From assembly GCA_947166295.1 (NCBI GenBank), contig CAMVDR010000001.1, positions 61,771-125,770 on the forward strand: DNA of 64,000 nt. Direction: 5' to 3'. The notes under the pieces are model-generated. The model was not told the DNA's origin and did no database searches. It saw only the letters and a program-made list of their open reading frames with translations. This stretch comes from an uncultured Candidatus Saccharibacteria bacterium (GTDB lineage: Bacteria > Patescibacteriota > Saccharimonadia > Saccharimonadales > Saccharimonadaceae). Shown one piece after another: positions 6,415 to 61,305 of the stretch. The position numbers were made by a program, and so were the translations under genes. The number at the start of each line of letters is the position of its first letter. Position 1 is the first letter of the stretch.

Positions 6415-7947
6415 TTACTTAGCAATGCAGCGAATTGACCAACCGTAACCCTTGCCGTATGAGCCGTTAGGAATTACCTGGGTGGCGGTAAGTTTCAAAA
6501 AACCGGCCGAGCTTCCATTAAATGATGATGAAAGATAATTTCCAGAGTAACCTATGCTACTAGCCTTGCCATCAGCGTTAATTTCTCCGGAGGTAACGAA
6601 GTATAACGGATCGCTAATTAATCCCGTATCGGTATTAGTAGTGCCAGCATTATACAACTGATTAAGCCTTGCAAATTCATTAGTGGAACCAATTGTGCTT
6701 GCTCCTTGGTTAGATATAGTAGGTAATCGCCAACCTTTGGGGCAAATAGAATTCTTTGGGTTGTTAGTTACATTGTTAAATGTATTTCCGGTTAATGAAG
6801 AAGAATTGTTCGATGCTATAGCTGCTGTCCAATTATAATAATTGCCAAGTGATGCGTGTCCTATGTTGATATCGTCTGTCCTACTGGCGGAAGCTGGCAT
6901 AACACCGGATTTTGTCCAACCTGGAACAACTGTGCTGTTGCCACCGGTAAAGTCTATGGTAGTAGCAGTACTAGCCGGCTTCCAATATATTACTCCATTA
7001 TTTTCTGTGTATCCATTTTGGTATTCGCGATAGTTATTGGTAGATGCATCATAGGACACATTTAGGTCTGTAGTTTGGGAATTAAGTGTAGTATTGGCTT
7101 CTATATCAAAATCTAAGTTCTGCGTCATCCAGATATGCCCATCTGCCAATCTAGTTACCCAGTATTGTTTACCATCTCTAGTATCCATGGCCTGTAAGGT
7201 ATCACCTTGGTTTGGTATTTCATTTTGCCATTCGGATACGTTTTGCATAAGGTGTAAAGTGCCTATACTATCTCCAGACCCATGTATTAAGACATACGCT
7301 ACTTGCCCAGTATAAGTACCAGCATGCTGAGTAGGTGCAGTATATACAGCATAAGTAGTAGTAAAGGTTGAACCAGTAATCATGTCAGTAGTACCAGATT
7401 GTCTTCCTGCTACTTTGATCCAAGTACTAGGTACTAAGCCATAGGTATTATTATAATCTTGTTCTATAACTGGTGGAGTAGGTGAAGTATCGCCTGATAC
7501 ATTGCCTAACTTCATAGCCCAAGAAGAAGTAGTATCTCCTTGTTCGTATATACCAGTTGCTATATTATGATTACTGCTAACACTACTAATTAATGTATTA
7601 TTGCCCACTATACCATTACTAAGTCCATTAGCATATATAGCATACCCATTACCATCATTACATAGTGTAGTAATGGTGGTCTTACCTATATCAGAAGTAT
7701 AAGTTCCACTATTTAAAGTGGCATTATGAGCACTATTTACTACGCTAGATAATGTGCACGATGTAGGAAGAGATAATGTTAAACTATCTGCTGAAGCACC
7801 ACTAGTAACGGCAGAAGAATGAAAAGAACTTAACAATAAAGTAGATATAACTAAAATAGGCAAACTAACTAAAAGAATATTACGGAAAGCATAGTAGAAG
7901 AAATCTATTCTACTATTTGCTAAAGATTGTTTTACTTTGTGGCCCAT
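6415..7947 (-). CDS. Secreted/anchored FISUMP-domain surface protein (paralogue 1)
   Basis: MQNVSEWQN..QAMDTRDGKQYWVTRLADGHIWMTQNLDFD, ICPKGWRLPT, GWSIRCIAK; likely ATG at 7947 (MGHKVKQ, RBS AAGTGAGG). Confidence 0.75.
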   Translation of the reverse strand: MGHKVKQSLANSRIDFFYYAFRNILLVSLPILVISTLLLSSFHSSAVTSGASADSLTLSLPTSCTLSSVVNSAHNATLNSGTYTSDIGKTTITTLCNDGNGYAIYANGLSNGIVGNNTLISSVSSNHNIATGIYEQGDTTSSWAMKLGNVSGDTSPTPPVIEQDYNNTYGLVPSTWIKVAGRQSGTTDMITGSTFTTTYAVYTAPTQHAGTYTGQVAYVLIHGSGDSIGTLHLMQNVSEWQNEIPNQGDTLQAMDTRDGKQYWVTRLADGHIWMTQNLDFDIEANTTLNSQTTDLNVSYDASTNNYREYQNGYTENNGVIYWKPASTATTIDFTGGNSTVVPGWTKSGVMPASASRTDDINIGHASLGNYYNWTAAIASNNSSSLTGNTFNNVTNNPKNSICPKGWRLPTISNQGASTIGSTNEFARLNQLYNAGTTNTDTGLISDPLYFVTSGEINADGKASSIGYSGNYLSSSFNGSSAGFLKLTATQVIPNGSYGKGYGWSIRCIAK

Positions 7948-17463: not shown

Positions 17464-17691
17464 GTTAGCAAATAGTTGAAAATTATTTCATAAACCGTTT
17501 GGTGGGGGCGAATTGTTCAGACGTTAACAATCTATAGAGATGAAATAAAAAACAAACTAGTCAATTTATAAACTAATATTTAGAATACGTCAAATATCAT
17601 TAATTGAGGTGGCTATTAGGTTTTGTCGATTCTATTTCGACAAAAATTGCTGTATTTTACCCCATGTTATAATTCTTTTATTGTTATAGTA

Positions 17692-32111: not shown

Positions 32112-33596
32112 TTAACGCATTATACACCGCACGGAACGCCCGCTCATTCTGCCGTTATCAGTATAAGATGGACTAGCCGTATTACTTTTAAAATACATAT
32201 CATAAGTACTTGAACTTGATTTAACCGTACTAGATAAGTAATGTCCGAAACCAGCTCCAAAATTAGCGCCCCAAACATCACCGGATCTTATAAACCATAG
32301 CGGTTCGTCGATTAAGCCGGTATCTGTATTATTTAAATTATTGTTATATAAATAATTTAACCTTGCAAACTCATTAGTAGAACCAGATTCTGTTTCGGAT
32401 TGACTGGATATAGTAGGTAGCCTCCAACCTTTAGGGCAGATAGAGTTCTTGGGATTTTTAGATATATCATTTAGTGTATCTTGTTTTAATGAGGACGAAT
32501 TATTGCTAGCTATAGCCGCCGTCCAGTTATAATAATTACCCAGCGATGCGTGACCTGTTTCTGTGCTATCTGTTTTACTCGCAGAATATGGATTATTATT
32601 ATCGTTGCTCCAACCAGTTACAGTGGTATTCTGGAAGTCTATAGTTTTTCTTTCTGGTGTCCAGGTAGTAATACCAGTATTTGGATTATAATTATACCCA
32701 TCTACATAAGCATCAGTTAGAGAGTGGTCTGTTAAGTCTGTATCTTTAGAAGTAAGTGGTTTAGCAGGATCTAGGTCTAAGTCTAGATTTTGGGTCATCC
32801 AGATATTGCCATCTTTTAGTTTGGTGACCCAGTACTTTTTACCATCTCTTGTATCTATAGCCTGTACACTTTCTTCCATAGCAATATTGTTCTTCCATTT
32901 ATCTACTTCTTGCATATAGTATGGTGGTTTTTCGTATGAGGGGTGAGTTAGTAAATATTTCACTTGTCCATTGTATGTACCAGCATGTTGGTTAGAAGTA
33001 GTGTAGATGGCATAGGTAGTAGTAAAGGATGAGCCTTCGTCCATATCGGTAGTACCAGAAGGCCTAGAAGCTACTCTAGTCCAGTATTGTGGTACTAAAC
33101 CATAAGTATTGTCATAAGCTGGTTCTATAACTGCTGGAGTAGGAGAAGGATCATCTGGTATATTATTTAACTTCATAGCCCAATTAGAGATTAATCCACT
33201 GGTCGCTAATCCTGTGTCTATACTGTATTCAGGATGTTCTGCGTTAATGAGTTTAGTATTGCCATCTTCGTTGTTGCTATAGCCAGCAGCATATACACTA
33301 TACCCATTACCATCATTACATAGTGTAGTAATGGTAGTCTTACCTACATCACTATGATAAGTACCATTAGTAATCTCTTTAGTATGTGCACTATCTACTA
33401 CACTAGATAATGTACAAGAAACAGAAAGAGAGAACTGTATTTGATCTATACCAGAATTAGAGCCTGTAGCAGAAGAGCGGAGGGAAGACAAAATAATGGC
33501 AGAGATAATAATTAATGGGATACTAATCAAAAGAATGTTGCGGAAGAAATAGTAGAAGAAAACTGTATAATTTTCTGTTTTGTTATTATGGCTCAT
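32112..33596 (-). CDS. FISUMP-domain surface protein (paralogue 2)
   Basis: Colinear similarity to 6415..7947: SCTLSSVVDSAH, TTITTLCNDGNGYSVYA, VQAIDTRDGKKYWVTKLKDGNIWMTQNLDLD, ICPKGWRLPT. Confidence 0.78.
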   Translation of the reverse strand: MSHNNKTENYTVFFYYFFRNILLISIPLIIISAIILSSLRSSATGSNSGIDQIQFSLSVSCTLSSVVDSAHTKEITNGTYHSDVGKTTITTLCNDGNGYSVYAAGYSNNEDGNTKLINAEHPEYSIDTGLATSGLISNWAMKLNNIPDDPSPTPAVIEPAYDNTYGLVPQYWTRVASRPSGTTDMDEGSSFTTTYAIYTTSNQHAGTYNGQVKYLLTHPSYEKPPYYMQEVDKWKNNIAMEESVQAIDTRDGKKYWVTKLKDGNIWMTQNLDLDLDPAKPLTSKDTDLTDHSLTDAYVDGYNYNPNTGITTWTPERKTIDFQNTTVTGWSNDNNNPYSASKTDSTETGHASLGNYYNWTAAIASNNSSSLKQDTLNDISKNPKNSICPKGWRLPTISSQSETESGSTNEFARLNYLYNNNLNNTDTGLIDEPLWFIRSGDVWGANFGAGFGHYLSSTVKSSSSTYDMYFKSNTASPSYTDNGRMSGRSVRCIMR

Positions 33597-49077: not shown

Positions 49078-49806
49078 TTATAACACAAGTTTTTCGGCGT
49101 CTTTGACATCATAATTGCCGATTTTGATGCGACGAAGTGTAGTAAGATAGGCGCCAGTTTTTAGAGTTTCACCGATATCTTCGGCGAGAGTGCGGATGTA
49201 GGTGCCGCTACTACAATGGACGCGAATTTTAAGCTCTGGATAATTGTATTTTAGGATTTCTATGCTGTAGATTTCGACTTCGCGGCTAGGGATTTCGCAG
49301 TCTTTGCCTTCGCGGGCGAGTTTGTAGGCACGTTGACCGTTGATTTTGATGGCGGAAAACTTAGGCGGGGTTTGGGTGATTTTACCGATAAATGAGCTTG
49401 ATACAGATGTAATTATGTTTTGGGCGGGTCCTGCCGTCGCAGCTTCCCCCATCGTGCTCGGCGAAAGCCTCCGCGCGCTGGGGGACCCCCCAGCTCCGTC
49501 GCCCGCCCATGTAGAATCGTATTTCGTGATTTCCCCTTCTGGGTCACCGGTGGTAGAGGTGAAGCCGAGCTTCAAGGTGGCCTCGTAGACTTTGTCTAGT
49601 TTTAAAAATTCGTTAGATTTTTTGGTCATTTTGCCAGATAGCAAAATTAAGAGGCCGGTGGCAAATGGGTCCAAAGTGCCGGTGTGACCAACCTTGATTT
49701 TGTGGCCAAACTCGGCTTTTAGTTTGCCGCGGATTTTGGCGACTACGCCAAAACTAGAGATACCGGCAGGTTTGTCGATGAGGATAATCTGATCTTCCAT
49801 TGACAT
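49078..49806 (-). CDS. truB: tRNA pseudouridine(55) synthase, carrying an in-frame palindromic insertion
   Basis: LIDKPAGISSFGVVAKIRGKL, KVGHTGTLDPFATGLLIL, CSSGTYIRTLAEDIGE; insertion WAGDGAGGSPSARRLSPSTMGEAATAGPAQ. Confidence 0.93.
   Translation of the reverse strand: MSMEDQIILIDKPAGISSFGVVAKIRGKLKAEFGHKIKVGHTGTLDPFATGLLILLSGKMTKKSNEFLKLDKVYEATLKLGFTSTTGDPEGEITKYDSTWAGDGAGGSPSARRLSPSTMGEAATAGPAQNIITSVSSSFIGKITQTPPKFSAIKINGQRAYKLAREGKDCEIPSREVEIYSIEILKYNYPELKIRVHCSSGTYIRTLAEDIGETLKTGAYLTTLRRIKIGNYDVKDAEKLVL
49421..49509 (-). repeat. In-frame palindromic element in truB
   Basis: TGGGCGGG/CCCGCCCA ends; homologous to 61155-61241. Confidence 0.8.
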
Positions 49807-50739: not shown

Positions 50740-50952
50740 GATGGAATCATCTCCTAAAAATGTACTAGAGGTCTACAGCAGAAATAAACCTAACCTTTCT
50801 ATTATAGCACAGATTACGTAAAATGTCAATGCTTTAATGTTGACTAAGAGGTATTTTTATGGTAAAATTACGGTGACATTGGGGGTGAACTTTAAGATTT
50901 TGTGAACTTTGCTTAGGTTAGCCCTGATGATCTTGTGAAATGAGGTGATACT

Positions 50953-60291: not shown

Positions 60292-61305
60292 TTATTTGCG
60301 GGGTTTTGAGATGTTGGCGGGGCGGCCGTAATCTGGCAAGATGAGTTGGTGTTTTTTGCCGTGATGGTCATAGAGGGGGATGTTTAGCTCTAAAGCTAAG
60401 GTATTAACTATCGTGGCGCCAATGCGGAGACCGGTAAAAGAGCCAGGGCCAGACATAAAGGTGATTTCGGAAATATCTTGGAAGGTTTGATCGTTTTCTT
60501 GCAATTTGTCGTGGATGAACTTGAGCAATTTTTCGGCGAGATCGTTAGCGAAAGTGTAGCGATATTCCTGCTCGTTCAATTTGAGGATGGTCTCGGGGGT
60601 AGAAGTATCCAGATACATAGATAACCAAATAACGCCTTTCCCGACTCGCTCGCTTCGGTCCGTCTGTGTTTCACGAGACGGAACTGCCTTGTTCGGAAAA
60701 TCAAGTTTACTTGATTTTCTCTCACTTCGTTGTTCCGTCGTTACGGGCGAAGCTTCGCTCATCCCGCTCCTCGTTAGTCGCGTACGGTCTCGAAAGGTGT
60801 TATTTTGGCTATCTTTGACCTTTATCTCACGAGAACCGTTATTAAGTTTGTTGATAAAAAGTTTAATATGGTTTTTAGGAAGTATATTTTTGACGGAGTC
60901 TGACCACTCAATGATAATTATATTTTTAGGATTCGTTAGATTTTCTTGCAAATCTTCTAACATGATGCCTGGGTCTGGAAGGCGGTAAAAATCATAATGA
61001 ATAAGACGGCCGCCATTTTTGAGGGCGTAGGATTTGGAGATAGTAAAACTGGGGCTGGCGATAGGTTCTTTGATATCGAGACCTTTGGCGAGACCGCGAG
61101 TGAGAGTAGTTTTGCCAGCACCGACATCACCGATGAGTTCAATAACGATTGGCCCGACGGGTCCTGACCTCGCAGTTTTCCCCATCGTGCTCGCCTTACG
61201 GCTGCGCGCGTCTGGGGTTCCCCCAGCTCGGCCACCCGTCGACGTCATATAATCGACGAAGTCTTTGCCAAACTCTAGCATTTCTTGTTCAGAATTGATA
61301 ATCAT
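60292..61305 (-). CDS. TsaE-TsaB fusion (tRNA t6A biosynthesis) with palindromic insertions
   Basis: ELIGDVGAGKTTLTRGLAKGL...IIIEWSD (TsaE); MYLDTSTPETILKLNEQEYRYTFANDLAEKLL...FMSGPGSFTGLRIGATIVNTLALELNIPL (TsaB); ATG 61305. Confidence 0.85.
   Translation of the reverse strand: MIINSEQEMLEFGKDFVDYMTSTGGRAGGTPDARSRKASTMGKTARSGPVGPIVIELIGDVGAGKTTLTRGLAKGLDIKEPIASPSFTISKSYALKNGGRLIHYDFYRLPDPGIMLEDLQENLTNPKNIIIIEWSDSVKNILPKNHIKLFINKLNNGSREIKVKDSQNNTFRDRTRLTRSGMSEASPVTTEQRSERKSSKLDFPNKAVPSRETQTDRSERVGKGVIWLSMYLDTSTPETILKLNEQEYRYTFANDLAEKLLKFIHDKLQENDQTFQDISEITFMSGPGSFTGLRIGATIVNTLALELNIPLYDHHGKKHQLILPDYGRPANISKPRK
60621..60812 (-). repeat. ~192-bp palindrome at the tsaE/tsaB junction
   Basis: ATAACCAAATAACGCCTTTC../..GAAAGGTGTTATTTTGGCTAT, GACGGAAC/GTTCCGTC, GAAAATCAAGT/ACTTGATTTTC. 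Confidence 0.75.
61155..61241 (-). repeat. In-frame palindromic element in tsaE
   Basis: CGACGGGT/ACCCGTCG ends; gap-free alignment to the truB copy. Confidence 0.8.

Follow-up and report, generated by a model that had tools for sequence, protein, structure and literature searches.

The window, by which we mean the whole stretch of 64,000 nucleotides that was analysed, comes from a Saccharibacteria MAG of 766,738 bases in 30 contigs (G000). Two reading frames on its minus strand carry palindromes that are members of one dispersed family, as shown in the following list.

49078–49806, minus strand: truB, 242 aa (NCBIfam TIGR00431, 210 bits, in two stretches, the second from residue 131)
49421–49509, no strand assigned: palindromic element, truB copy (87-bp core at 49422–49508 plus a complementary outer pair)
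60292–61305, minus strand: tsaE-tsaB in one reading frame, 337 aa (NCBIfam TIGR00150 and TIGR03725)
60645–60800, no strand assigned: second, unrelated palindromic repeat family (two nested palindromes), an in-frame linker joining the TsaE part to the TsaB part
61154–61242, no strand assigned: palindromic element, tsaE copy (core at 61155–61241)

Both copies are read in frame on the minus strand, as originally predicted, and NCBIfam names the hosts as TruB and a TsaE-TsaB fusion, in which TIGR00150 (TsaE) covers residues 53–163 and TIGR03725 (TsaB), slightly under its cut-off, covers residues 230–312. The element-encoded part of TruB, WAGDGAGGSPSARRLSPSTMGEAATAGPAQ (about residues 100–129), lies in a loop between a strand ending in EGEI and the helix preceding FIGKI. 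In TsaE, the element-encoded peptide STGGRAGGTPDARSRKASTMGKTARSGPVG stands directly ahead of the TsaE core GPIVIELIGDVGAGKTTL. A hand count had put the ungapped 87-bp match between the two copies at about 65 positions; the exact figure is 65/87, and it lies above background, given that the shuffled truB copy reaches 37–45/87 anywhere in the window. Elsewhere in the window, nothing matches the truB copy better than the tsaE copy. The terminal inverted repeats and the covarying pairs (1:87, 3:85 and the central hairpin), previously noted by eye, proved to be real. With its outer pair, 0:88, the palindrome spans 89 bp, folds as a hairpin with z of −2.4 to −3.1, and has a GC content of ~73% as compared with 43% in the window.

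Other repeats are present in the same DNA. The second family at 60645–60800 folds with z of −3.3 on the plus strand and has six more partial copies in G000 (E of 4e-25 to 2e-8) and one intergenic copy in L304. Window positions 6650–7776 and 32344–33434 are long paralogous stretches made of several blocks that are 71–82% identical, and promoter-like TTGACAaaaa...TATAATg blocks, up to 86% alike, occur at 17690, 36981, 37750 and 47683 and, in inverted orientation, at 50798 and 56164.

Searches of G000 with blastn recovered seven clear copies of the truB/tsaE element (tsaE copy, E = 9e-13; five more, E of 1e-20 to 3e-9), and these seven were used to build a covariance model, R1. Covariance model scores were 92 bits for the truB copy (G000:C1:111192-111278) and 103 bits for the tsaE copy (G000:C1:122925-123011). 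The conjecture that the two copies represent a larger family was borne out by R1, which found 14 copies in G000 at E < 1e-4 and ~90 in other genomes. The G000 copies include in-frame insertions in truB, tsaE, tgt, topA, mnmA, an rsuA/rluB-type pseudouridine synthase gene and a tlyA-type gene; an 83-bp copy lies close to the start of prmC, where the start codon is uncertain, and six of the 14 lie outside long ORFs. Five G000 copies, those of prmC and four intergenic ones, form a second type with the same ends and a different core. Copy lengths are mostly multiples of 3, the commonest being 87, 84, 78, 75 and 72 bp.

A single exact DNA pattern, searched against one genome for each of 84,980 species, matched 98 stretches; among the 80 matches listed, nearly all have Candidatus Saccharibacteria in the record title, and ruminant gut is the main source. 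Applied to the pattern-matched loci, R1 identified 89 copies. Positive genomes numbered 10/151 (3/61 genera) in a sample of the family and 15/380 (12/313 genera) in a sample of the phylum. Within the genus, several congeners have 7–14 copies and G001 has none, so the distribution is patchy. Related elements with the same ends occur, mainly between genes, in other Patescibacteria families, and several contain an internal TGCTCNC...GCGCGC motif. Mostly intergenic relatives with conserved ends were seen in such families at loci L289–L298 (genomes G439, G360, G290 and G366), and three related copies were seen in a MAG labelled Actinobacteria (L106 6262–6357 and 7632–7723; G568:C27:73141–73238; locus GC 0.59). 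Rfam 15 contains no family matching the element, and a known RNA family was dropped as an explanation on the basis of these searches. Full-text searches of freely accessible papers found no earlier description in Saccharibacteria, or in Patescibacteria generally, in agreement with the original prediction.

Complementarity between the arms is maintained while their sequence changes. Compensatory changes are found in 7/27 pairs among the seven G000 copies, and both-side changes in 17/27 pairs among 87 distinct copies. In the alignment of the latter, which was fitted to R1 and is biased in its favour, 96% of cells are paired and the covariation score is 0.253, as compared with 0.094 for shuffled and ≤0.06 for slid partners. 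The outer pairs 0:88, 1:87, 2:86 and 3:85, counted by position alone, are complementary with z ~10 each and variable in their bases. Complementarity ends sharply beyond 0:88, giving terminal inverted repeats of ~9 bp, and core positions 4–7 are paired in 97–99 of 101 copies. Between the orthologous truB copies of G000 and G209, pair 40:47 has gone from G-C to C-G. Paired changes of this kind can result from selection for the hairpin, from use of one arm as the template for the other while the strand is folded, or from conversion with a second copy as donor.

Insertion within genes follows a strict pattern. Among 102 distinct copies, 75 lie within ORFs of at least 150 aa and 21 are clearly outside. 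The in-ORF copies represent 51 separate sites, spread over 35 clusters of host proteins. At 49 of the 51 sites the element is in codon phase 1, its first base falling on position 2 of a codon (p = 2e-21, assuming equally likely phases; copies shared by descent are non-independent, a dependence that counting sites reduces but may not remove). Phase 1 is preferred in either orientation (33 and 18 sites). Avoidance of stop codons does not account for this phase lock, because all but one of the six frames are free of stops in 71–83 of 86 copies. Phase 1 stands out, in either orientation, by its composition: A, G, S, T and P make up 0.70 of residues and R plus K 0.05, with few Cys or Trp, as compared with 0.43–0.55 and ~0.2 in the other frames. 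The product is an Ala/Gly/Ser/Thr/Pro-rich linker, different in sequence for the two orientations, and the same bland phase-1 composition is found in the genus's intergenic copies. Despite the insert, twenty host proteins have clear NCBIfam matches: TruB, TsaE, Tgt, TopA, MnmA, pseudouridine synthase, TlyA-like, PrmC/HemK-like, IleS, PheT, ObgE, CysS, QueA, TyrS, TypA, GatA, MurB, DnaX, a penicillin-binding protein and XseA. Among the wider kin of the element, the copy at L284 is 86 bp long, which is not a multiple of 3, and reading by eye places a stop codon in its linker phase; this copy suggests, short of proof, that the coding-compatible form arose within this genus.

Comparison with relatives shows that the sites can also be without the element. 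TruB orthologues have no aligned domain in place of the inserted segment: congeners such as G009 and the outgroups carry only a few residues there. The G009 protein is without the insert and is 87% identical beside the site. Solved structures of TruB and Tgt likewise have no insert, and PDB TruB alignments break at it, which fits the original view of the palindrome as an insertion. AlphaFold2 models of TruB and Tgt, made from shallow alignments, were of low confidence (mean pLDDT 50 and 32) and were set aside for that reason; in the TruB model the insert region is unstructured, as is much of the remainder. The topA site is filled in G000 and empty in the nearest congener, G209, whose TopA flanks are 97% identical, and the G209 mnmA gene and the site downstream of iscU are occupied by different palindromes. 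None of these three sites is a perfectly clean empty site: at topA the loop sequence on either side of the insertion has diverged, and exact boundaries could not be placed at any of the three, owing to loop divergence or refilling. In rluB of G108, one copy is nested within another.

A survey of 29 congener Tgt sequences, covering the loop between helix THxWLDRC and strand LYAVVQGG, found segments of 7–16 residues in 17 and of 30–46 residues in 12. In most of the 12 long loops the DNA is a strong palindrome (z as low as −8.6); several unrelated families are represented, and every insert is in frame. Taken together, the Tgt hot spot, the filled and empty topA sites, the exchanged palindromes and the nested copy support repeated insertion at permissive sites. 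Individual congener tgt genes are illustrative. Loci L216–L226 carry unrelated palindrome families at the one loop; L223 and L224 have a core in common, with outer arms of ~20 bp that are wholly different yet self-complementary; and L226 (G185) carries a short in-frame insert, CGGGTGGC fused to GGCAGGACCCG, that resembles a deletion remnant of the truB/tsaE element. The occupation of common loops by unrelated families, and the use of one phase for both orientations, are points that the original prediction did not include. Between G000 and G209, divergence is 4.8% in the element and 4.6% in the flanks, with wide variation among single copies, and by this equality the peptide shows no evidence of additional constraint. 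The tgt and rluB copies are oddly conserved, being identical across 87 bp despite 5–6% flank divergence.

The search for a mobilising enzyme was negative for the candidates considered. Y1 (PF01797)/RAYT transposases were found in 0/7 carrier congeners and in 0/11 congeners of another sample, and such an enzyme was rejected as the mobiliser in this genus given its absence from the carriers and relatives searched. The only IS200-type trace in G000 is a truncated TnpA fragment. This remnant lies at L082 2338–2663 (G000:C14), where an STnc490 Rfam match is followed by a truncated TnpA of 66 aa. No target-site duplication was detected, with direct repeats of at least 3 bp in no more than 2/101 copies at any boundary tried. 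Plasmids, phages and viral contigs gave no match to the element, and a viral, phage or plasmid origin was dropped for this reason; the carriers' own transposons were surveyed in part.

We consider it probable that the family consists of non-autonomous, selfish mobile DNA palindromes (MITE/REP/RPE-like) that are translated as tolerated loop inserts and confer nothing that the cell requires. According to this model, a palindrome of ~72–90 bp in the genus would insert between and within genes in either orientation, and a copy within a gene would survive only if the host protein can accommodate it, which calls for a loop position, a length that is a multiple of 3 and the one phase giving a bland linker. 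From the phase lock we infer that the inserts are translated within the host protein rather than skipped. Spread may occur by transposition or by hairpin-based copying by some enzyme, and the match between arms would be kept by hairpin-templated repair, in which one arm is copied from the other, or by a mobilising enzyme's need for a hairpin, rather than by any cellular RNA function. Counted against the selfish palindrome interpretation are the failure to find a mobilising enzyme, the lack of target-site duplications and of a clean empty site, and the odd conservation of the tgt and rluB copies. A more elaborate version, which we put forward tentatively, is that in this genus the family evolved to be tolerated as coding sequence, losing stops, acquiring lengths divisible by three and specifying an inert linker on both strands in the same phase; that a hairpin-templated process accounts for both arm matching and spread in the absence of any known transposase; and that the family is one of several palindrome families using common permissive loops.

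Other readings take the structure, the transcript or the peptide as the point of the insertion. A functional RNA or DNA element, such as an mRNA stabiliser, attenuator or protein-binding site, would be selected for its structure, with copies in genes providing useful regulation. Strong covariation and the mostly intergenic kin in other Patescibacteria families, with their common TGCTCNC...GCGCGC motif, speak for such a role, which we nonetheless consider unlikely: copies occur in genes in both orientations, sites vary between species, and close relatives are without the element or carry some unrelated palindrome there instead. Moreover, the arms vary freely as long as they match, a pattern that hairpin-templated repair explains equally well.

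In the mitochondria of some yeasts, mobile bypassing elements are hairpins that the ribosome skips, and the inserts could likewise be present in mRNA and missing from protein, through skipping or RNA removal. In favour, the hairpins are very stable, GC-rich and placed within coding sequence, and essential proteins, IleS, PheT and TopA among them, are hosts; yet lengths divisible by three, freedom from stops and a bland phase at 49/51 sites would then be needless, and the element has no Rfam intron or ribozyme match, making skipping very improbable. Least probable of all is an adaptive protein segment for interaction or RNA binding, repeatedly recruited by translation and tRNA-modification enzymes. 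Although many hosts function in translation or act on tRNA, and peptides are similar within one orientation, the two orientations specify different peptides, the site in other congeners holds an unrelated palindrome or a short loop, TopA, DnaX, MurB, XseA and a penicillin-binding protein are among the hosts as well, and divergence reveals no extra conservation.

In-frame mobile palindromes have hitherto been treated chiefly as an oddity of Rickettsia and Wolbachia. Saccharibacteria, with small genomes, in another phylum and with partly the same host genes, provide an independent and apparently richer case. With dozens of congeners filled, empty or otherwise filled at one loop, it becomes possible to test old questions about the way these elements move, the way proteins accommodate them, and whether reduced genomes favour them. 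A caution also follows, in that annotated proteins from these bacteria include linkers made of selfish DNA.

The selfish palindromes proposed here resemble three known classes of short repeats. Bacterial MITEs (ERIC, Correia/NEMIS, RUP and YPAL; PMC2229807) are also short and protein-less, have terminal inverted repeats, and are sometimes fused in frame to ORFs. The Saccharibacteria element differs in that it is GC-rich and has neither a target-site duplication nor constant TA ends; the copies examined are mostly intragenic, and plasmids, phages and viral contigs yielded no parent transposon with matching ends. REPs, and BIMEs with RAYTs, are dispersed palindromes with occasional intragenic copies, including some in DNA-repair genes. 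REPs are 20–40 bp long, have a GTAG or CGTC tag at one end (PMC3733652) and are associated with RAYT (Y1) transposases. In contrast, the Saccharibacteria element is 72–90 bp long, its outermost bases vary so that there is no fixed GTAG/CGTC tag, and seven carrier congeners have no Y1 transposase. The analogy with Rickettsia palindromic elements (RPEs) drawn in the original prediction holds as to behaviour, with in-frame and intergenic copies, several families and common hot spots, and the element may be called RPE-like in that sense, with no implication of membership in a sequence family. RPEs and their Wolbachia counterparts are small stem-loop palindromes found both between genes and in frame in conserved genes, with several families per genus (PMC2229807, PMC3767692), and their inserts occupy solvent-exposed protein positions. 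The Saccharibacteria element shares the long palindromic stem-loop and the combination of in-frame and intergenic insertion. CGTC-type repeats likewise have no known transposase dedicated to them (PMC3733652). It departs from RPEs in length (mostly 72–90 bp versus 100–150 bp), in its phylum, in GC content (~73%, as compared with 32% for the Rickettsia genome; PMC3767692), in the single phase used by both orientations, and in complementary outer arms that vary freely. Nevertheless, different families at or near one site are also known for RPE-4, RPE-6 and RPE-7 (PMC3767692), and hosts of Rickettsia-type palindromes include TruB (PMC3733652) and QueA and PheT (PMC3767692), three proteins that carry palindromes in both groups.
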